Part shown: positions 4,217 through 16,257 of the stretch, one piece after another | How the letters are laid out: every line of letters begins with the position of its first letter | Position numbering within the stretch: the stretch's first letter is position 1 | Source: an uncultured Gammaproteobacteria bacterium | Lineage (GTDB): Bacteria > Pseudomonadota > Gammaproteobacteria > PS1 > Pseudothioglobaceae | Length of the DNA: 38,762 nucleotides | Assembly (NCBI GenBank): GCA_937899995.1 | Contig: CALCCK010000063.1 | Coordinates: forward strand, 1 to 38,762 | Direction of reading: 5' to 3' | The notes under the pieces: generated by a model | Told to the model about the DNA's origin: nothing | What the model saw: only the letters and a program-made list of their open reading frames with translations | Databases searched by the model: none | Translations under genes and position numbers: made by a program

Positions 4217-5256
4217 AATTAGTTATTGACGATGCATGCTACGCCTACAATGAGATGTTCTCACAATTTGGTGAGATTATTACTTTGCCTGGTCGAAACA
4301 TTGATTCAGACTCTGTAAAGGATACAGACATACTCATCGTACGCTCACGTACCAAAGTCAACCAATCGCTACTAGAAGGAAGCAAAGTTAAGTTTGTTGG
4401 CTCAACGGTTGCTGGTCTTGATCATGTTGATCAAGATTATTTAGCAAAAAACAATATTACTTTCTTTTCAGCTCAAGGCTGTAACTCAATGGCAGTGGCC
4501 GAATTTGTTATTACTGCGATTGTTAATTTGGCCGATGAACTTGAGTTTGATTATCGCGACAAAACTTTGGGAATAATCGGTGTGGGTAATGTCGGCTCAA
4601 GATTGGCAGCCAAAGCTCAACTAATGGGCATTAAAACTCTACTTAATGATCCACTACGTCAAGCACGTGAAAATTTACCTCATTTTGTTGATTTAGACAC
4701 AGCACTTAGTGCAGATATTGTTACTTTTCACACACCACTGACTTTTGATGGAAAACACCCATCCTACCAATTATTAAATAAAAGTAATTTCCACAATATT
4801 ACCAACCAAACTATTATGTTTAATGCTGCTCGAGGTGGTGTGATCGTTGAAAATATTTGGCAAAAAACTCAAACAATGGCCAATATCATTGACTGCTGGG
4901 AAAATGAACCAGACATCAACCAAAATCTACAAAAAAATGCCTATTGGGCCACACCACACATTGCTGGACACTCAGTTGATGCCAAATTTATGGGTAGTTT
5001 TATGGTTTATGAGGCTTTATGTGACTTTACTGGTCACAAACAAGATGAAAGCATTGTTAATTTGATTAATCCAGGCGTTTTAGAAGTTAAAAAACATAAT
5101 CTTAAAGATACACTAAACGAAATTTATGATTTTAAGCAAGACACAGCGGCAATCAAAAATATTGGAAATTTTGAAGATTATCGAAGAAACTATCCTATTC
5201 GCTATGAATGGCCACATTACAATAGCCTAACTGCACTACCTATTGTCAATAATTAA
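4213..5256 (+). CDS. pdxB: erythronate-4-phosphate dehydrogenase
   Basis: 347 aa. NAD-dependent D-2-hydroxyacid dehydrogenase acting on 4-phosphoerythronate in the DXP-dependent pyridoxal phosphate pathway. It has the Rossmann motif [16 protein letters not shown], the FHTPLT segment, an NAARGG catalytic-Arg region, DCWENEP with the catalytic Glu, and ATPHIAGHS with the catalytic His. The order follows E. coli PdxB closely. The start at 4213 is preferred to an upstream TTG because it gives the classic ATGA overlap with ung. The stop shares TTAA with the convergent DmsBC gene. Confidence 0.95.
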
Positions 5257-7121
5257 CCACCTCTAACAATTGACCTTAATTGCATTAAGGCATCCTTGAA
5301 AGTAGTTTGTTTTATCGTACTAATTAGCGCTTTTACATCAAACTTATGATGGCGTTCGGCCATGACACCCATTTGTGGCATATCGGCTAATCCTGTTTCA
5401 ATCGCATGCTCTTTGAACTTGTCATTTTTCCAGAAGAAACCACCTGGCATAGTTGTTGGAATAACTACGGCATAAAACAAGATTCTACCTAAATAAGCTG
5501 AAACTAGAACAGACACAAAACTAACTGTAAATAATAAAGTACTTGGCTCAATCATTAACAAAATCATGATAGCCATATTGATGCCCAGCATCGAATTACG
5601 TAAACGGTAAGTTTTACCAAATGTAGTCACTTGCTCAAAATAAGATGCTTGACCTTCGCCGGTTTTTTGTACATCTTTGCGATGCACAACATGGCCAATA
5701 CTCTCGAATGCTAATCCGAATAAAACAATTGATGCAAACTGTGATATAGCAATATCACTCAAACCAAATGGCATCAATAGTACTCCGAATAACAAACTAC
5801 CAAGGCTTAATGCTGTGCCATAAAAGGCACTACCTGTTTGCCAATGATCCCAAAATGGTCTAGCTGGAATTCGATAAAGTTTGTACATGTAATAAGAACC
5901 TGCAGCAAGCCCTATAAATGTTACAGCGTAAGCAATATTTATTAAAAATTCTAAACCAGTAATATATACTGCCAGCAACATGATTAACCCGATAAAGAAG
6001 ATAGTCACACCAAGGATTTCTCGACTAACCGGCGATAATCTTAAATTGTAATAACCACGATAAAAGAATTGAGGCTTGCCTAAATGCATATTGAGCTTAA
6101 ATAATCCATAGCCTAATAATACTAATAGCACAGCCAAAATCACAGTCATACCATCAACATTGGTTGCGACCACTGAATCTATATTAAATAAATCAGACAC
6201 AATTAACCATAGACTTGCTCCCATCACCGTCTGTACACATAATGTAAAGATTGCATGTGCATTTTCATGAGAATTAATTAATGTACGTATACCCCATGCT
6301 TTTTTGTGTGAATGTTTTGTATCATCTAAAACAGATTTGAATTCACCATCTTCTTGCTTGTGATATTTAATCGGCATACCATCAGGTCTGACCATGTCTC
6401 GTTGCGTATCTTTTGTTTGCTGAAAACGGATATTGGGATGAGTGATCTCAGGATCTGGGAAACCTGGAATCGAAATTTTTGCTTGATCTCTATTCTTAGG
6501 TATATTTTCCACTACACCGAAATCTAGTGCAAAACTCAAACATGCAGCAACACATGCAGGCTGAAGACCCACCTCAAGACGATCAACACACATATTACAT
6601 TTACTTACTTGACCCTTGACTGGATCTAGTTGTGGTGCATTATATGGACATACCCAAGTACAATATCCACAGCCAAAACAAATATCTGGATCTTGTAATA
6701 CTGCACCATACTCAGCAAATTTGGTATAGGCACGAGTTGGGCATCCTGTTAAACATACTGGATCATCACAATGATTACAGGCCATGGAAAGATTAAGACG
6801 CTGATAATTAGGATATGAGCCACCCTCAACAAAGCCAACTGAACGGTATGCTATATGATCAGGAACATCATTTTTTTCACTACAGGCTGATTCACAAGCA
6901 TGACAACCAATACAATTATCTGCATTAAAATAAAAGCCATGTTGTTTATAACGATTAGGATTATCGCCAATACTGGTGTCACCATTGATATTTAAACTCT
7001 GATTACGTAACGGATCACCTGCTTCAGTTGTTTCAATAGAATCGCCATAACAATTGGTTTGTTTAGTTTGTTTATCCCATAAAAAGGCATCTTTTGGCTC
7101 ATCTGACCTAACTTTCCACAT
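5253..7121 (-). CDS. DmsB-DmsC fusion: four-cluster ferredoxin plus quinol-side membrane anchor
   Basis: 622 aa. Residues 60-200 carry sixteen cysteines in four groups (70/73/76/80, 115/118/123/127, 148/151/154/158, 175/178/190/194), the arrangement of DmsB-type subunits with four [4Fe-4S] clusters. From about residue 280 to 580 there are roughly eight hydrophobic helices of DmsC type, expected to bind and oxidise quinol in the inner membrane. DmsB and DmsC are normally separate chains. The gene starts 9 nt after the nasA-like gene stops, with AGGA upstream, so it is the likely electron donor for that molybdoenzyme (inference). A role with a different molybdoenzyme cannot be excluded. Confidence 0.85.
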
Positions 7122-7130
7122 AATATTTTC

Positions 7131-9335
7131 CTAAAATTCTCTCATTTCCATGCTCAACTGTGCAGCTGCTTTTTGATCTTTAATAATTTCAACTCTAACC
7201 GCTTGTTGCTTATAAGCTGGTTGTCTTGAATGTGGATCTAATAAACCCAGTGTTAATCGATTGGCGCAATCATGAAAATGGAATGGTAAGAACACCATGT
7301 TCTTTGCCACACGATTGGTAAATTTTGCCATTACAATTGCATCTGATCGTCTAGAAACTAAGCGTACATAATCACCATCCTTAGCCCCTATTTCAATAGC
7401 TAAATCAGGATTTATTTCAATAAACGGGATAGGGCTAAATTTATTATTATTAGCCACTTTTCCAGTTTTACTACGCCCATGCCAATGCTCAACCAATCTA
7501 CCTGTATTCAACCAAATCGGATACCTTTCATCAGGGACTTCGTTATTATCAATAAAAGGAAGTGGTATCAATTTTGCCTTGCCATCTTCATATCTAAAGG
7601 TAGCATCCTCTGTATAGATACGCTTACCTCCTGCTGGTGGCTGCTCTCCATTCTTAGCCTGTTCTTCTGTATATGGCCATTGAATGCCTCGGTTCTTTTC
7701 AATATTTTCATAGTTCATGCCTGATATATCGCATAGACGCCCCTTAGATAACACTTTCATCTCTTCAAATACGTCTGAAGTTTTTTCTGGAAAAGTTACC
7801 TTGTTATCTGTATTAAAACGCTTAGCCATTTCATTGAAAATCCAAAAATCTGGTCGCGAGTCGCCATACGGCTCAATAATTCCACCGACTAAATTCACAC
7901 GTCTTTCAGTGTTGGTCATCACGCCAGTTTTTTCTGCCCATACCCCCGCCGGTAAAAATACATTGGCATATTGATTACTTTCAGAATCTTGATAACAATC
8001 TTGAACGACGCAATATTCTAATTTTTCCATTGCCTTTCTGATTCTAGCTGTATTAGGCAAAGAAGAGAGTGGATTGGTAGCAATGAGCCACAAGCCTTTA
8101 ATTTCACCAGTTTCAATCGCTCTATAGATATCAGTTTGAAACATGCCACGCTTAGTTGGTAAAAAATCAACATCAATATTCCAATATTTAGCGATATCTT
8201 CTCGATCTTTTGGATTTTCTAAAAATCGATAATTAGGTAGTCCCGAACATGACGACCATTCTCGCGTACCCATAGCGTTACACTGACCAGTGATAGACAA
8301 ACTAGTACCACCTGGAATGCCGATGTTACCGGTAATAAGTGCTAAATTATTGATACCAACCACTCCATCAGAGCCATGAGTTGATTGATTAATACCCATT
8401 GCCCAGATTTGCATTGCAGCTTTCGATTTGGCAAATAATCTAGCCACCACTCTAATGGTATCTTCATCAATGCCGCAAATTTTAGAGGCTGTCACCGGAT
8501 CGTACTTATCTACTTCAGCTTTCAACTCATCAAGCCCATTGGTGTTCTTTTCAATATAGTCCTTATCTTCTAGCCCTTCGTTTAGAATAACATACATTAA
8601 GGCATTCATTAATACAACATCGGTGCCTGGTGTTACCGTTAAATGAATATCTGCACTTTGCGCCAACATAGTAACTCGTGGATCGACGACAATGAGTGGG
8701 AAATTACGCTTCTCCTGAGCCTCTTTCATTCTCCAATAGATAATTGGATGTTGCTCGGGTAAATTTGAGCCCCAAGCAATTAAACAATCAGTATGCTCAA
8801 AATCCTCATAACAACCTGGAGGGCCGTCTGAACCAAACGAGCGCTTATAACCTGATACGGCTGAAGCCATACAAAGCGTGGTATTACCATCGTAATTATT
8901 AGTGCCAATCAGACCACGAATCAATTTCCCCAGAGTATAAAACTCCTCAGTTAACATTTGACCAGTGGAAACCACTGCTATAGAATCCCTACCATATTTT
9001 TCTTGGATTTTTTTCAAATTATTCGCAACATCATCAATTGCAGTGTCCCAAGTAGTTTCTTTAAACTCTTCGTGCCAACTATTACGTATCAGTGGTTTAT
9101 CGCCACGACCCTCTGAAACAAACAACTCGTGCTCCATAATTCCTTTTAAACATAACTTACCACGATTAACGTCTGCACCGCCCACACCTCTTGAAGATAC
9201 TGCGTGGTTGTCTTTATTAAAGCCAACCTCCATAGAGCAGCCCGTAGAGCAATAGCCACAAGTAGCATACTTCCATTCAACAATTTTCTTATCAGTAATT
9301 TTGATTGGATTTTTCTGAGTTCTTCCGAGTAACAT
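7131..9335 (-). CDS. nasA: assimilatory-type nitrate reductase catalytic subunit
   Basis: 734 aa molybdopterin oxidoreductase. Cys26, Cys29, Cys33 and Cys62 bind the N-terminal [4Fe-4S] cluster, and Cys155 in TTLCMASAV is the expected molybdenum ligand as in NasA/NarB. The C-terminal MopB domain (WLNTGRLVEHWHGRSKTG) is present. There is no twin-arginine signal, so it acts in the cytoplasm, reducing nitrate to nitrite. The [2Fe-2S] C-terminal extension of some NasA proteins is missing. Neighbours narK, nirB and nirD support nitrate as substrate; formate dehydrogenase-like alternatives are less likely. AGGAT lies upstream of the start. Confidence 0.88.
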   Translation of the reverse strand: MLLGRTQKNPIKITDKKIVEWKYATCGYCSTGCSMEVGFNKDNHAVSSRGVGGADVNRGKLCLKGIMEHELFVSEGRGDKPLIRNSWHEEFKETTWDTAIDDVANNLKKIQEKYGRDSIAVVSTGQMLTEEFYTLGKLIRGLIGTNNYDGNTTLCMASAVSGYKRSFGSDGPPGCYEDFEHTDCLIAWGSNLPEQHPIIYWRMKEAQEKRNFPLIVVDPRVTMLAQSADIHLTVTPGTDVVLMNALMYVILNEGLEDKDYIEKNTNGLDELKAEVDKYDPVTASKICGIDEDTIRVVARLFAKSKAAMQIWAMGINQSTHGSDGVVGINNLALITGNIGIPGGTSLSITGQCNAMGTREWSSCSGLPNYRFLENPKDREDIAKYWNIDVDFLPTKRGMFQTDIYRAIETGEIKGLWLIATNPLSSLPNTARIRKAMEKLEYCVVQDCYQDSESNQYANVFLPAGVWAEKTGVMTNTERRVNLVGGIIEPYGDSRPDFWIFNEMAKRFNTDNKVTFPEKTSDVFEEMKVLSKGRLCDISGMNYENIEKNRGIQWPYTEEQAKNGEQPPAGGKRIYTEDATFRYEDGKAKLIPLPFIDNNEVPDERYPIWLNTGRLVEHWHGRSKTGKVANNNKFSPIPFIEINPDLAIEIGAKDGDYVRLVSRRSDAIVMAKFTNRVAKNMVFLPFHFHDCANRLTLGLLDPHSRQPAYKQQAVRVEIIKDQKAAAQLSMEMREF

Positions 9336-9903: not shown

Positions 9904-12333
9904 TTATTGTGTAATAACTTCGAACTGATGGCTTTGTGCGCCTTCTGCACGCTCTTTCCATGGATCGTTTTGAGTCTTCTGCTGAGAAACTAAAAATCTA
10001 GCATGCAACGCTTTTCTGTTATCTTCATCATCAACTAATTGCTCAGTAACGAATGACAAACCTACACGATCAATCCATGGTGCAGTTCTCTCTAAATAGA
10101 GCGCATCCTCACGATAAAGTTGGATATAAGCACCAACATATTCAATCGCCTCTTCGTCACTTTCAACTCGAGTCAATAAATCGGTCACTCGAACTTTAAT
10201 ACCACCATTACCACCAACATGAAGCTCCCATCCTGATTGAACTGCCACTAGACCAAAGTCCTTAATAGTTGCTTCAGCACAGTTTCTAGGGCAGCCAGAT
10301 ACGGCTAATTTAAACTTATGAGGCATCCACGAGCCCCAAGTCATTTGTTCTAATTGTATGCCCATTGTCATAGAATCCTTAGTACCAAATCGACACCAAG
10401 TATCACCGGCACAAGTTTTAACTGTTCTCAAAGATTTACCGTAAGCATGGCCAGAAACCAATCCACCAGCACCGAGGTCTTTCCACACTTTAGGAAGATC
10501 TTCTTTAGTCACACCGAATAAATCAATACGTTGTCCGCCTGTTAGTTTCATGGTTGGTATATTAAATTTATCAACCACATCAGCAATGGTTCTAAGTTCA
10601 AGCGGCGTGGTAACACCACCCCACATTCTTGGCACCACAGAGTACGTACCATCTTTTTGGATATTGCCGTGCGAACGCTCATTAATAAATCGTGATTGTG
10701 CATCATCTTCATAATCAGGATTAGCTGCCAATAAATAATAATTTACTTCAGGTCGACATACATGGCAACCATCTGCATTTTCCCAATCCATCTTAGCAAA
10801 TACTTCAAATACTGTATCAAAATCATTGTCAAAAATAAAATCATGAACTTCTTGCTTAGTGTGTTCAGCACAACCACAAATTGGTTTCTTCTTTGGTGAT
10901 TCTGAATATTCCCCACCTAAAGTTGAAGCAATTAATTGCTCAACCAAGCCCGTGCAAGAACCACATGAACTTGACGCCTTAGTATGGGCGCGAACATCTT
11001 CTAAAGTAAAAAGATTTTTCTCATTAATGGCGCTCACAATGTCACCCTTACACACACCATTACAGCCACAAATCTCTGCTGAATCATCCATTACCATAAT
11101 CATCTCTAATGGACCATGCCCAGAGTCACCAACATGTGCTTGACCAAATAGTAGACGATCACGCATATCAGCAATATTATTTTCATCTTTCATTAGCTGG
11201 AAATACCACGACCCATCAATGGTATCTCCATACAATACTGAGCCAATAATTTTGTCGTTCTCAATTACAATTTTCTTGTACACACCTTTAGCAGCATCCT
11301 GAAAAATTAAATTTTCACTATTATCAGTTCCTTGAAAATTACCAGCAGAAAACAAATCAATACCTGTAACCTTAAGTTTAGTCGAAGTTACTGAACCCTC
11401 GTATAAACCAATACCGTATTCGGCAATATGATTGGCGCAAACTTTAGCTTGTTCAAATAACGGTGCTACAAGACCATAACACAGGCCTCGGTGTTGTGCA
11501 CATTCGCCCACCGCATAGATACTTGGATCAAATGTTTGCATCGTATCGTTCACCACAATACCACGCTCACAATGAATACCCGCTTGTTGTGCTAAGACAA
11601 TATTAGGTCGAATTCCTACTGCCATCACCACCAATTCAGTGGTAATTTTCGAACCGTCATCAAATTCAATTGTGCGAACTTTGCCCTTGTTATCCCCAAT
11701 CAATTGTTTAGTTTGTGCTTGTAATTTAAACGCCATACCGCGTTCTTTTAAGGACATTAACAACATTTGTGACGCTGCACTATCAAGTTGCATATTCATC
11801 AAATCTTCAAGTAAATGCACTACAGTCACGTTCATGCCTTGCTTCATCAAGCCGTTAGCCGCCTCTAAACCCAGTAAACCACCGCCAATTACCACTGCAT
11901 TTTTATGATGTTTCGCCGCATCAATCATTTGATCAACATCAGCCACATCTCTAAAACCAATCACACCATCAAGGTCATGACCTTCAATTGGTAAAATGAA
12001 TGAATTAGAACCAGTTGCAATTAATAATTTATCGTAATCGTAGCTAATACCATTTTGATCAATAACTCTTTTATGAATACGGTCAATCTCGCTAATAGCA
12101 CAATCTGTGTGCAATGCAATATCATTGTCCTTGTACCAATCTAGATCATTAATCATGATTTCGTCAATCGTTTTCTCGTCTGCTAGAACTGGGGAAAGCA
12201 TAATACGATTGTAATTACCGTAGGGTTCAGAACCAAATACAGTGATATCAAATTTTTCATCAGTAATTTTTAATAACTCTTCAAGGGTTCTGACACCTGC
12301 CATACCATTTCCGATTAAAATTAATTTCTTCAT
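9904..12333 (-). CDS. nirB: nitrite reductase (NADH) large subunit
   Basis: 809 aa, cytoplasmic, reduces nitrite to ammonium with NAD(P)H. Domains in order: FAD-binding (GNGMAGVRTLEE near residue 8), NAD-binding (GGGLLGLEAA near 150), a BFD-like [2Fe-2S] domain with CGCNGVC and CGSCTG, a second cysteine-rich segment (CGC and CHVC), then the sulfite/nitrite reductase domains. The siroheme-[4Fe-4S] cysteines are Cys641, Cys647, Cys681 and Cys685 (CAGDTWC and SGCPRNC). It has a strong AGGAGAGG ribosome binding site and starts 8 nt after the kinase gene. Confidence 0.95.
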   Translation of the reverse strand: MKKLILIGNGMAGVRTLEELLKITDEKFDITVFGSEPYGNYNRIMLSPVLADEKTIDEIMINDLDWYKDNDIALHTDCAISEIDRIHKRVIDQNGISYDYDKLLIATGSNSFILPIEGHDLDGVIGFRDVADVDQMIDAAKHHKNAVVIGGGLLGLEAANGLMKQGMNVTVVHLLEDLMNMQLDSAASQMLLMSLKERGMAFKLQAQTKQLIGDNKGKVRTIEFDDGSKITTELVVMAVGIRPNIVLAQQAGIHCERGIVVNDTMQTFDPSIYAVGECAQHRGLCYGLVAPLFEQAKVCANHIAEYGIGLYEGSVTSTKLKVTGIDLFSAGNFQGTDNSENLIFQDAAKGVYKKIVIENDKIIGSVLYGDTIDGSWYFQLMKDENNIADMRDRLLFGQAHVGDSGHGPLEMIMVMDDSAEICGCNGVCKGDIVSAINEKNLFTLEDVRAHTKASSSCGSCTGLVEQLIASTLGGEYSESPKKKPICGCAEHTKQEVHDFIFDNDFDTVFEVFAKMDWENADGCHVCRPEVNYYLLAANPDYEDDAQSRFINERSHGNIQKDGTYSVVPRMWGGVTTPLELRTIADVVDKFNIPTMKLTGGQRIDLFGVTKEDLPKVWKDLGAGGLVSGHAYGKSLRTVKTCAGDTWCRFGTKDSMTMGIQLEQMTWGSWMPHKFKLAVSGCPRNCAEATIKDFGLVAVQSGWELHVGGNGGIKVRVTDLLTRVESDEEAIEYVGAYIQLYREDALYLERTAPWIDRVGLSFVTEQLVDDEDNRKALHARFLVSQQKTQNDPWKERAEGAQSHQFEVITQ

Positions 12334-12341
12334 AACCTCTC

Positions 12342-14039
12342 CTAACGTACTAACATTAACAATAATACGACATTTAGTGCGAACGATAGTGCAACTAATA
12401 ATCGATACTTTTTCAATAAAAATTCTGGCTGGGTTGTCTCTGAAGGTGTAAATAATGCCTGGTTCGGATGCTCTAAATCAAACAAAAACTCTGATAAAAC
12501 TTCATATCTACCTTCTACGCTTAAACAGCATGCTTTATGAATAGCGCCATCAATCCATATTGGAACATGTGGATCCTGCTTTAATACTGATTCATAAGAC
12601 AATTTTGACAATTTTTTGGCTGTCAGATTTTTATCTAATTTATCCCCATAAGGAAGGCAAGATGCTAGCATCTCATAAACAATAGCACCTAAACTAAACT
12701 GATCAGATGCTTGAGATACTTTTTCATTGAGTATTACCTCTGGCGCTGTATATCCCTGAGTGCCTTGATTACCCACTGCACTGATTGGATTCACCAATTC
12801 GGAAACACCAGCAATTCTTGCTGAACCAAAATCAATCAACTTAACTTGACCCATTTCATCAATCATGATATTTTCTGGCTTGAGATCACAATGCAACATT
12901 TCTTGGCGATGAAATGCCCTTAAACCTTGAATAATTTGCTTAACAATACTTAATACTATTGTCATATCTGGATTAGGATTTTCATCAATCCACGTTCGTA
13001 GCGTTTTCCCCTTAATGTATTCCATCGCATAAGCTAGAAATTTAGAGTCTTCGTTAGATTTATGAATTTTGACCACATTAGGACTTTGAATTCTCTGCCC
13101 AACCCATTCTTCATAGATAAAATGTTTAAGATATTGGGGGTCGTCTTCAAAATTGACAGAAGGTGTTTTTAACACAACTGATTGAGAAGTGTGAATATCT
13201 TTAGCTAAATATAATTGCATTTTGGCACTTGAAGCGATTAATGACTCTATTTCTAATCCATTAATTTTCATACCCTTTGCCAAATCAGGGGGCACTGGTC
13301 TTTGTGTCAATTCATCAAATGCTTCATCAATATTCTTTTCTGGTAGTTGCTCGATATGACAAATCATAGCTGAGGCATTGTCCTGACTGCCAGCAGAAAT
13401 TGCCCTTTTAACTAAATCATCAGCCGAAATATCCTTATTCATTAAAATTTCTAATAACGAATGGTTTAAATAATCATGCACACCATCAGTAGTTAATAAG
13501 AATCGGTCACCTTCCTTAATATCAAGTGTTTGATAATCCACACTGACTTTTAAATCAAAACCAATTGCTCTTGATAAGTAAGTTTTTTCTTTGTTGATAC
13601 TCAAGATGTGGTCTTTAGTAAACTGAGTTAAAACATCATCTCGTATTCGATAAATACGGGAATCACCTACATGGAATAAGTGCGCAGTATTAGATTTAAT
13701 AACTAACACACTCAATGTGGACAACATTGAAGAAATTTCATTTGCTCTCATTGATTGTGAATACAGCCAATTATTCAATGCTGAAATCACTTTAATAGCG
13801 GAATTTTCCGTACTCCAAGAATCAGGTGTTGAATAATAATCACTTAAAAACCCTTGAACACAAGTACTGCTAGCCTCTTTAGCCCTTTCACAAGCACTAA
13901 CACCATCGGCAATAACGCCAACAATACCCTTGTTTTCAAGCAACGGAGCGCTCGGGGCATGGTAAGCGCAAGCATCCTGATTCTCAGGCTTAATACCTGC
14001 CTGAGAGCTAAGTTGAATATTGACCTTAAGTGCTTTCAT
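12342..14039 (-). CDS. PP2C phosphatase-Ser/Thr kinase fusion, membrane-anchored
   Basis: 565 aa. Residues 1-235 are a PP2C-type phosphatase (VIADGVSA, LFHVGDSRIYRI, LLTTDGVHDYL and GSQDNASAM motifs with the metal-binding aspartates). Residues about 265-520 are a protein kinase: VVLKTP lysine, HCDLKPENIM catalytic loop, LIDFGSA and GYTAPEV. The glycine-rich loop is degenerate. A single C-terminal helix (about 545-563) would anchor it with both domains in the cytoplasm. It lies between narK and nirB with gaps of 2 and 8 nt. Related fusions are known in nitrate assimilation loci of other proteobacteria, and regulation of transport or reduction is a reasonable inference. No target is evident. 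Confidence 0.88.
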   Translation of the reverse strand: MKALKVNIQLSSQAGIKPENQDACAYHAPSAPLLENKGIVGVIADGVSACERAKEASSTCVQGFLSDYYSTPDSWSTENSAIKVISALNNWLYSQSMRANEISSMLSTLSVLVIKSNTAHLFHVGDSRIYRIRDDVLTQFTKDHILSINKEKTYLSRAIGFDLKVSVDYQTLDIKEGDRFLLTTDGVHDYLNHSLLEILMNKDISADDLVKRAISAGSQDNASAMICHIEQLPEKNIDEAFDELTQRPVPPDLAKGMKINGLEIESLIASSAKMQLYLAKDIHTSQSVVLKTPSVNFEDDPQYLKHFIYEEWVGQRIQSPNVVKIHKSNEDSKFLAYAMEYIKGKTLRTWIDENPNPDMTIVLSIVKQIIQGLRAFHRQEMLHCDLKPENIMIDEMGQVKLIDFGSARIAGVSELVNPISAVGNQGTQGYTAPEVILNEKVSQASDQFSLGAIVYEMLASCLPYGDKLDKNLTAKKLSKLSYESVLKQDPHVPIWIDGAIHKACCLSVEGRYEVLSEFLFDLEHPNQALFTPSETTQPEFLLKKYRLLVALSFALNVVLLLMLVR

Positions 14040-14041
14040 GA

Positions 14042-15511
14042 TTAATTAAGTTTAATGATCTCAACGGTTCCATCGTCCAATACCTCTATCATCTGGTTTT
14101 TTGGCTCATCTAAAAGAAGCACAATGATGGCTAATACAACTGTTGACACAATACCAATCAACATAAAGAATTGGTCATAATCAACCAATGAGTTAATGGT
14201 TAGAAACAACACAGAACCTGTCGCACCAAAAGCACCGACCATGCCAGCAATTTGCCCAGTAAGACGCCTTTGAATAAGTGGTACCATGGCAAAGACCGCA
14301 CCTGAACCTGCTTGAGAAAATATTCCACCCAAAATAGTCAGTCCAACTACCCAACTAATCGACCAAGTGTCTTTATCAACATTGCCCAATATTAAAAAGC
14401 TAATAGAAATACCAAAAAAAGCAATCACCAGTGTTAGTTTACGGCCAATCTTATCACTAATCCAGCCACCGCCTGGTCGGGCAAACAAATTAATAAACGG
14501 GTACACACCGGCTAATAGCGCAGCCGTAACTTTAGGCAACTCAAACCAATCCACATAGAACATCGCTAAAATTGATACTACAGCTAATTCAGTGCCAAAA
14601 GTAGCTAAGTAAGCCCAATCAAGAATAGCCACTTGTTTAAAATGATAGCGACTTTGCTTGGGCACAGGATTTTTAACAAATTCTGCATTGATCTGCCAAA
14701 TTTTGAATAACTGCAATACAAATACAGACACCAGTATGGCATATACCATCCAAGTAGTCTCTGTTGAAATTAACCCTGCTTTTGCAGGTGAAAGCTTCCA
14801 AGTTAACAATGCCAACACTAGATATAGCGGAATGTTCATTAAGATGTATAAAACCAAATCACCAAAACTGGTCACTTCCATTGCGCCTGATTTTTTTGGC
14901 TTAAAGTAAGTAGAGCCTTTGGGTGTATTGCTCACATTAAAGTAATAAAAAATTCCATAAGCAATAGCAATAAGGCTAGCAATGGTAATGGCATATCTCC
15001 AACCATCCGCATCACCAAAACTGGCAGCAACAAACGGCAAAGTAAACATCGCACCAGCAGAACCAAAGTTACCCCAACCACCATAAACACCTTGTGCGGT
15101 ACCAGTTTGTTTAGCTGGGAACCATTCTGAAATCATACGAATACCGACCACGAAACCAGCACCAATAAAGCCCGATAAAAAACGCATCATCGCCAACTGC
15201 TCATAACTTTGCATCCAACTAAAGGCGATTGAGATCAGTCCACCCAATATCAAAATAAATGAAAACATAATTTTAGGACCGAACTTATCAACCAACATAC
15301 CCACAACAATTCTTGCAGGAATAGTTAAACCCACATTTAAAATTAACAATATTTTTGCCTGCTGATCAGTCAGTGACAATGCCTCTTGAATAAATGGCAT
15401 CATTGGGCCAATGCTTAACCAAATAACAAAAGTCATAAAAAAAGCAAACCAGGTTAGGTGCAAAATCCGATATTTACCGCTAAATGAAAATAGATTAAAT
15501 TTATCTTCCAC
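14042..15511 (-). CDS. narK: nitrate/nitrite transporter, MFS
   Basis: 489 aa NNP-family major facilitator with about twelve hydrophobic helices. The family signatures are visible: the glycine-rich GGWGNFGSAGAMF and a second FARPGGGWISDKIGRK, plus the substrate arginines expected near RFLSGF and RRLTGQ. It imports nitrate or exchanges it for nitrite. The start is GTG at 15511, with GGAG 7 nt upstream. It is the first gene of the nitrate operon and follows a structured leader with a terminator. Confidence 0.93.
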   Translation of the reverse strand: MEDKFNLFSFSGKYRILHLTWFAFFMTFVIWLSIGPMMPFIQEALSLTDQQAKILLILNVGLTIPARIVVGMLVDKFGPKIMFSFILILGGLISIAFSWMQSYEQLAMMRFLSGFIGAGFVVGIRMISEWFPAKQTGTAQGVYGGWGNFGSAGAMFTLPFVAASFGDADGWRYAITIASLIAIAYGIFYYFNVSNTPKGSTYFKPKKSGAMEVTSFGDLVLYILMNIPLYLVLALLTWKLSPAKAGLISTETTWMVYAILVSVFVLQLFKIWQINAEFVKNPVPKQSRYHFKQVAILDWAYLATFGTELAVVSILAMFYVDWFELPKVTAALLAGVYPFINLFARPGGGWISDKIGRKLTLVIAFFGISISFLILGNVDKDTWSISWVVGLTILGGIFSQAGSGAVFAMVPLIQRRLTGQIAGMVGAFGATGSVLFLTINSLVDYDQFFMLIGIVSTVVLAIIVLLLDEPKNQMIEVLDDGTVEIIKLN

Positions 15512-15521
15512 TTAAAACTCC

Positions 15522-15564
15522 AAAAAAAAAGCCTACATAATCCTTAATAAAGAATTATGTAGGC
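15522..15564 (-). terminator. intrinsic terminator in the narK leader (attenuator)
   Basis: Arms GCCTACATAAT (15531-15541) and ATTATGTAGGC (15554-15564) form an 11-bp perfect stem with three further inner pairs. On the minus strand the stem is followed by nine T (15522-15530) and then the narK ribosome binding site. The only gene upstream is moaE, which diverges, so there is nothing upstream to terminate. It must act on the narK transcript itself. Confidence 0.85.
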
Positions 15565-15580
15565 CTCAATGCCAAAAAAT

Positions 15581-15707
15581 AGACAACTACGTCTGGCTCA
15601 ATCAATGCAACTTTTCATTGACGAAAAAAAATGTTTACCCAATTTTATTCACTTAAGTAAAAAACTGGATAAACATCGATGTTAAATTATTACCCATCGT
15701 TGGATAA
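15581..15707 (-). promoter_or_regulatory. structured 5' leader of the narK operon, ANTAR-like hairpins
   Basis: In transcript order: hairpin A at 15690-15707 (TTATCC/GGGTAA, six-base loop AACGAU); hairpin B with 9-bp arms at 15666-15674 and 15633-15641; hairpin C at 15602-15621 (UCAAUG/CAUUGA; read with one A-G mismatch it has the six-base loop AAAGUU); hairpin D at 15581-15594 (AGAC/GUCU, loop GUAGUU). Loops A and C have A at position 1 and G at position 4, the pattern reported for RNA targets of ANTAR antiterminators such as NasR. Hairpins A and B use near-identical arms and could exchange partners. Pairings were derived by eye. Confidence 0.6.
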
Positions 15708-15716
15708 TGTGCAACT

Positions 15717-15725
15717 ATTATATCA
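15717..15725 (-). promoter_or_regulatory. extended -10 promoter of the narK operon
   Basis: On the minus strand TGATATAAT gives a perfect TATAAT (15717-15722) with an extended TG element; no good -35 box stands 17 nt upstream. Transcription from about 15710 would give a leader of some 200 nt before the GTG of narK. Confidence 0.6.
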
Positions 15726-15807
15726 AAATAATACCACCTATATTAATAATTAATAATATTTAGAGAAAATATATAAAAAAAAACACCACAAAAAGCTAAA
15801 ATTAACC

Positions 15808-16257
15808 ATGGATAAAATAATCATTCAACATCAAGACTTTGATTTAACAAACGAAGTCGGCCTTGCTAAAGACGATGATAGCAATATTGGTGCTATAGTC
15901 AGTTTTGTCGGTACGGTGCGTGATTTAGACAACGAATCCATCACTAAGATGACACTTGAACACTATCCTGAGATGACTGAAAAATCCCTTGCATCAATCG
16001 CCAATCAAGCACATGAGCGCTGGCAGTTAGGCAGCATCACTATTATTCATCGTATTGGCGATCTTTCAGTCAATGATCAAATCGTATTAGTAATTACCAC
16101 CAGCAAACACAGGAAATCAGCCTTTGAATCTTGTGAATTCATTATGGATTATCTAAAAAATCAAGCACCTTTTTGGAAAAAAGAGCATACTCAGAATTCT
16201 AGCAAATGGGTTAAGTCTAAAACAACAGATGAAGATCAAACTACTAGTTGGGATTAA
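15808..16257 (+). CDS. moaE: molybdopterin synthase catalytic subunit
   Basis: 149 aa. Large subunit of molybdopterin synthase, which with MoaD transfers sulfur to precursor Z. Family motifs include GAIVSFVGTVRD, LEHYPEM, HRIGDL, and the C-terminal HRKSAFESCEFIMDYLK followed by PFWKKE with conserved lysines. It diverges from narK across 296 nt of AT-rich DNA. Its stop overlaps that of the convergent mobA by 4 nt. No clear ribosome binding site is seen. Confidence 0.95.
   Translation: MDKIIIQHQDFDLTNEVGLAKDDDSNIGAIVSFVGTVRDLDNESITKMTLEHYPEMTEKSLASIANQAHERWQLGSITIIHRIGDLSVNDQIVLVITTSKHRKSAFESCEFIMDYLKNQAPFWKKEHTQNSSKWVKSKTTDEDQTTSWD

Follow-up and report, generated by a model that had tools for sequence, protein, structure and literature searches.

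A structured leader precedes a nitrate assimilation operon

The window, which is the whole 38,762 nt (38.8 kb) stretch of DNA analysed here, from a marine sulfur bacterium of the Gammaproteobacteria, carries on its minus strand an operon whose genes are listed below in the order of their transcription.

14042..15511, minus strand: narK-type MFS transporter for nitrate/nitrite, starting at a GTG; opens the operon
12342..14039, minus strand: PP2C phosphatase-Ser/Thr kinase fusion; second gene of the operon
9904..12333, minus strand: nirB, nitrite reductase large subunit
7131..9335, minus strand: molybdopterin nitrate reductase (NasC/Fdh-like)
5253..7121, minus strand: ferredoxin-DmsC-like membrane anchor fusion; the same-strand run ends here

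Relatives of the PP2C-kinase fusion occur in 127 of the 370 genomes sampled across the class. Assimilatory enzymes do not usually have a fused ferredoxin-DmsC-like anchor after the catalytic subunit, as this nitrate reductase does, and it may take electrons from quinol.

The narK leader, as the term is used here, begins on the minus strand at the predicted start (~15710) and runs up to the GTG of narK (15511). Its elements, and the promoter element ahead of it, are the following, with the loop bases of the hairpins in square brackets.

15717..15722, minus strand: extended -10 promoter element TGATATAAT; predicted start ~15710
15689..15708, minus strand: P1 hairpin of module 1 (P1a), AUUAUCC[AACGAU]GGGUAAU; hexaloop with A1 and G4
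15672..15683, minus strand: P2 antiterminator hairpin of module 1 (P2a), AAC[AUCGAU]GUU; overlaps the 5' arm of T1
15632..15675, minus strand: terminator T1 hairpin, -16.6 kcal/mol
15624..15631, minus strand: U8 tract of T1
15602..15621, minus strand: P1 hairpin of module 2 (P1b), UCAAUGA[AAAGUU]GCAUUGA; A-G closing pair in the window
15581..15594, minus strand: extra (middle) hairpin, AGAC[GUAGUU]GUCU, between P1b and P2b
15562..15573, minus strand: P2 antiterminator hairpin of module 2 (P2b), GGC[AUUGAG]GCC; overlaps the 5' arm of T2
15528..15567, minus strand: terminator T2, -23.4 kcal/mol; adjoins the narK ribosome binding site
15522..15530, minus strand: U9 tract of T2

A transcription start near 15710 is favoured because an extended -10 element recurs just upstream of P1 in relatives, at the same distance as TGATATAAT in the window.

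The leader holds two predicted ANTAR modules in series

Published ANTAR targets, as described in the 2012 survey (PMC3369931), consist of two hairpins, P1 and P2, whose hexaloops carry A1 and G4, with the 3' arm of P2 serving also as the 5' arm of a terminator. The narK leader is two complete modules of this kind arranged in series, with four A1/G4 hexaloops and with each P2 overlapping the 5' arm of a terminator. Specifically, the GUU arm of P2a is the beginning of T1 and the GCC arm of P2b is the beginning of T2. Both hairpins of module 1 conform fully to the definition of an ANTAR-target hairpin (at least 3 bp, a hexaloop, A1 and G4), and the 5 nt linker between them lies within the short-linker range of that definition. 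P1b qualifies in the window only if its A-G closure is counted. The two P2 hairpins have 3 bp each, with energies of +1.3 (module 1) and -2.7 kcal/mol (module 2).

A sequence-only reading of this DNA had proposed ANTAR-type antitermination from two hexaloop hairpins, at 15690-15707 and 15602-15621, the latter with an A-G mismatch closing its loop. Both hairpins were recovered as described. However, they are the P1 hairpins of separate modules and not one unit, and both P2 hairpins and T1 had been missed; pairing the two loops as a single P1-P2 unit was rejected, as each has its own P2 and terminator. The intrinsic terminator that had been placed before the narK ribosome binding site is real and ends in nine T, but its stem forms up to 18 pairs if the count extends into the U tract, rather than 11 bp. 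It has no upstream gene to terminate, as had been noted, because only the divergent moaE lies upstream.

Folding of the leader, a check that had been suggested, gave an energy of -67.6 kcal/mol (z = -7.8), and none of 200 shuffled sequences was as stable. Dinucleotide shuffling of the leader produced a full module (P1, P2 and an overlapping terminator) only once in 2000 trials. When both strands of the window were scanned for modules, module 1 was the sole match; module 2 was skipped because an A-G mismatch closes its P1 loop. A terminator scan of 15300-16000 returned T2 as the only terminator-like site, with 0.2 expected. A search of the leader against Rfam gave nothing at gathering score and only chance miRNA- or snoRNA-like matches at a relaxed threshold, and no ANTAR RNA family was found in that collection.

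Module 2 departs from the published targets in several respects. The P1b loop is closed by C-G or U-G in most relatives and by A-G in the window, and the linker from the conserved P1b to P2b is ~28 nt. An additional hairpin between P1b and P2b, present in the window and in the lineage of G023 and G038, lies 7 nt from P2b. Position 1 of its loop in the window (GUAGUU) is G, not A; the corresponding loops in relatives are ACGGAA (L064) and AGUGCA (L068). Linkers range from 5 to 12 nt in eut targets, and 2-25 nt were allowed in a later study (PMC8164766). For EutV, a 14 nt linker cut induction and the addition of 20 nt abolished antitermination (PMC3369931, PMC8934654). Because of the P1b mismatch, the ~28 nt linker and this intolerance of EutV to long linkers, module 2 may here use the middle hairpin, a possible substitute P1, or may be weak.

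Conservation of the double module in the SUP05/Thioglobus family

The nitrate operon was traced by its second gene, encoding the PP2C-kinase fusion, across 83 genomes of the SUP05/Thioglobus family, whose members include Candidatus Thioglobus, SUP05 MAGs, thiotrophic symbionts of Bathymodiolus, Ruthia and Vesicomyosocius. The double-module layout is kept, with compensatory changes, in 25 nitrate-operon leaders. The position of the leader tracks the first gene of the operon. It stands before narK in the window and in G001 (L069), G023 (L064) and G038 (L068); where nirB comes first, as in most other genera, the leader sits before nirB, and for this reason none precedes narK there.

The search for compensatory changes that the sequence-only reading had called for therefore turned out positive, and the strongest signals lie in P1a and the two terminators, where covariation goes well beyond slid controls. 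In the 25 leaders, the P1a helix pairs are kept in 83-99% of cases and four of the seven covary. T1 is 97% paired, with covariation in 6 of 9 scored pairs, and T2 is 96% paired, with covariation in 8 of 9. Taking P1 and P2 of module 1 together, 92% of cells are kept, versus at most 54% in slid controls, and five pairs show changes on both sides. P2a is paired in 97% of cells, with most pairs varying little, and P2b likewise keeps 97% of cells and has no covariation of its own. The evidence for both P2 helices is accordingly the conservation of their loops and their overlap with the terminators, because their own covariation is little or none. This scarcity is as expected for a protein-stabilized hairpin whose arm is also constrained by a terminator.

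The loops themselves are strongly conserved. Three positions never vary in the 25 leaders, namely G4 of P1a and the A1 and G4 of P2b; A1 of P1a and A1 and G4 of P2a are conserved in at least 90%. Exceptions are L106, with G at position 1 of P1a, L114, where the P2a loop has seven bases, and L118 and L119, with degenerate P1b loops. The P1b loop AAAAGUUG is identical in all four narK-first leaders, where a change in the stem is compensated (A-U to C-G). The exchangeable arms that had been proposed for two hairpins, A and B, are unconserved; in L069, for example, the P1a arms read AUUAUCC/GGAUGAU, as against GUUUGCUUGG for the T1 arm.

R1, a covariance model built on module 1, matched six of the 370 genomes of the class, four of them family members and two of them weak matches. 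The order contains no sister family with which to compare. When 40 loci surrounding the kinase gene, limited in genomes and flanks, were scanned more strictly, no double module emerged; single modules at these loci precede nrtA-like, nirC-like and porin-like genes.

A NasT-like protein and its predicted regulon

The genome from which the window derives (1.24 Mb, 99% complete) encodes one ANTAR protein (71.2 bits, E 8.1e-20), so that the suggested search for such a protein also succeeded; an E. coli genome used as control had no match. This finding, together with the compensatory changes, supports the prediction of ANTAR-type antitermination. The protein is not the NasR-like NIT-ANTAR regulator that had been anticipated; it has 194 aa, comprises receiver and ANTAR domains and resembles NasT. 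Its best PDB matches are 1s8n, a putative antiterminator known as Rv1626 (PMC8934654), and the response regulator 6wsh, and its identity to distant receiver-ANTAR relatives is 45-37%. The nasT gene (L001:1096-1680, contig C15 of G000) is located downstream of glnK (PF00543) and amtB, and is joined to these genes instead of nasS.

R1 has three matches in this genome: the narK leader, the glnK-amtB-nasT leader and the leader of an unannotated ORF. Like the narK leader, the glnK-amtB-nasT leader comprises two modules, and NasT therefore probably governs nitrate assimilation and ammonium uptake as well as its own production. An automatic scan of 43 glnK leaders from family genomes located module 1 in 40, module 2 in 40 and both in 37. 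Among the 49 family genomes of good quality, R1 is present in 48 and an ANTAR protein in 47, versus 29 with the kinase-marked nitrate operon, and R1 modules lead glnK-amtB(-nasT) also in genomes without that operon. These counts identify glnK-amtB(-nasT) as the shared target, to which nitrate genes are added where present. G068 (99% complete) has two R1 leaders and no ANTAR match, reflecting either an assembly gap or a loss.

The third R1 target (L165:582-664, contig C66 of G000) is a single module before a 274 aa ORF (800-1624), which has no Pfam, NCBIfam or PDB match, is porin-like (outer-membrane) in appearance and is a possible third member of the regulon. In relatives, leaders resembling module 1 precede genes for fructose-bisphosphate aldolase, serC and an aminotransferase (L173:491-569, L175 minus strand, L170:500-584), a hint that the regulon extends further in some genera.

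A search for the NasS-type domain PF13379 found none in the genome of the window, with a control search positive in 12 of 14 genomes, and gave weak matches only across the family. The phospho-acceptor position of the NasT receiver is occupied by Asn56, and this residue is N in 82 of 82 close relatives and D in 10 of 11 distant ones. Because NasS was undetected and the acceptor Asp is Asn, both NasS-based nitrate sensing and classical phosphorylation are unlikely. Sigma-54 was detected neither in this genome nor in most relatives.

A predicted double attenuator and alternative explanations

We consider it highly probable that the cell's single ANTAR protein, the NasT-like receiver-ANTAR protein, reads the narK leader as a double transcription attenuator. 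With EutV and NasT as models, we infer that NasT binds the leader and acts by antitermination, that the gates operate in series and that the circuit feeds back positively. Without active NasT, RNA polymerase would halt at T1, ~85 nt into the transcript, or otherwise at T2 before narK. An active NasT dimer would grip P1 and P2 of module 1, depriving T1 of its 5' arm, and would repeat this action at module 2, so that both gates must open for expression of narK, the kinase, nirB and nitrate reductase. The effects of two gates in series would multiply. NasT would probably promote its own synthesis along with ammonium uptake, a positive feedback that follows because nasT sits behind the same double gates.

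An explanation that we regard as unlikely is that module 1 alone responds to NasT, with module 2 having decayed to a simple terminator whose effect is to reduce expression or to shield narK from transcription arriving from upstream. The mismatched P1b loop and the ~28 nt linker would fit such decay, given that longer linkers abolish EutV function (PMC8934654), and the third target in the genome carries just module 1. However, the P1b loop is constant in the narK-first leaders and its stem changes are compensated, A1 and G4 of P2b are invariant in the 25 leaders, and the middle hairpin gives back a 7 nt spacing. A far more improbable explanation is a protein-free riboswitch or a ribosome-mediated attenuator that senses a metabolite or codon supply. 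A structured leader of ~200 nt with mutually exclusive hairpins and two terminators would suit such a device, yet the Rfam search produced no credible candidate, conservation centres on the hexaloop A1/G4 positions and the helices, and an unsystematic look noticed no leader peptide feature.

A further alternative is that nitrate itself is the signal, as direct inducer of an ANTAR system of the NasR (NIT-ANTAR) or NasS-NasT kind. The downstream genes serve nitrate and nitrite assimilation, and NasT-NasS works in this manner in Paracoccus (PMC3795266). Against this stand the receiver domain of the sole ANTAR protein, the absence of PF13379 from the genome and its weak matches in the family, and the similar leader before glnK-amtB(-nasT), even where the kinase-marked nitrate operon was not found. 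We therefore judge direct nitrate sensing improbable, and the nitrate-specific response predicted by the sequence-only reading is not sustained, because NasS was undetected and the module is shared with glnK-amtB(-nasT). NasT-dependent antitermination at the predicted modules is well supported by the sequence comparisons, whereas nitrate as the direct signal is not. Our guess is that the double attenuator responds not to nitrate directly but to nitrogen status, either through the abundance of NasT or through a partner, for example GlnK.

More tentatively, and with somewhat less than even confidence, we suggest a broader reading of this arrangement. In a family mostly without sigma-54 and NasS, an orphan NasT with a dead receiver may have become a general nitrogen regulator, forming a self-amplifying glnK-amtB-nasT circuit. 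It would act at the RNA level only, through serial double ANTAR gates that give a steep, AND-like response, and would replace initiation control of the NtrC type.

Comparison with known ANTAR systems

The targets of EutV (eutP), NasR (nasF) and AmiR (amiE) described in the survey (PMC3369931) resemble the leader studied here in their two short A1/G4 hexaloop hairpins, in the sharing of an arm between P2 and the terminator and in the nitrogen genes downstream. Unlike these targets, the narK leader has two complete modules and two terminators, and module 2 of the window combines a long linker with an additional hairpin and a loop closed by A-G. NasT also binds a nasA leader (PMC3795266), and the NasS-NasT systems of Paracoccus, Pseudomonas and Azotobacter (PMC3795266, PMC5424462) resemble the present one in having a receiver-ANTAR protein and a nitrate operon whose leader is subject to antitermination. 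They differ in that here NasS was undetected, nasT lies with glnK-amtB and the phospho-acceptor Asp is Asn. ANTAR proteins with a non-phosphorylated pseudo-receiver are already known, and NasT here shares this type with AmiR (PMC3369936).

In contrast to AmiR, no AmiC-like partner was identified here. AmiR is controlled by AmiC, and NasT in this genome represents a case that needs control by means other than NasS or phosphorylation.

The 2012 survey (PMC3369931) likewise already described ANTAR leaders upstream of nitrate, PII and ammonium transporter genes. It reports 13 ANTAR RNA matches in six transcription units of the Firmicute Desulfotomaculum acetoxidans, a regulon that, like the present one, has several ANTAR RNAs and includes PII and ammonium transporter genes. 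In the papers available to us, we came across no report of twin ANTAR attenuators placed in series within one leader and conserved through a family, nor an account of a twin-ANTAR regulon in the SUP05 family; individual leaders may stand in the supplementary tables of that survey. The parts of the system are of known kind; what seems new is that they occur twice and that the customary nitrate sensor has been lost.

Which of ammonium and nitrate the SUP05/Thioglobus bacteria choose has consequences for nitrogen flux in the sea. These organisms are abundant in oxygen-poor seawater and live as symbionts of vent mussels and clams. The twin ANTAR leader offers a concrete RNA-level regulon that is open to testing, and a natural serial arrangement of antiterminators.

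Elsewhere in the class, two of three single-module leaders contain sigma-54-like promoter sequences, as judged by eye, whereas sigma-54 was undetected here. In other gammaproteobacteria (L213:2780-2960 and L217:1740-1880), single modules follow such sigma-54-like sequences and precede nitrate ABC-transporter-like genes; the element upstream of the narK leader is a sigma-70-type -10.
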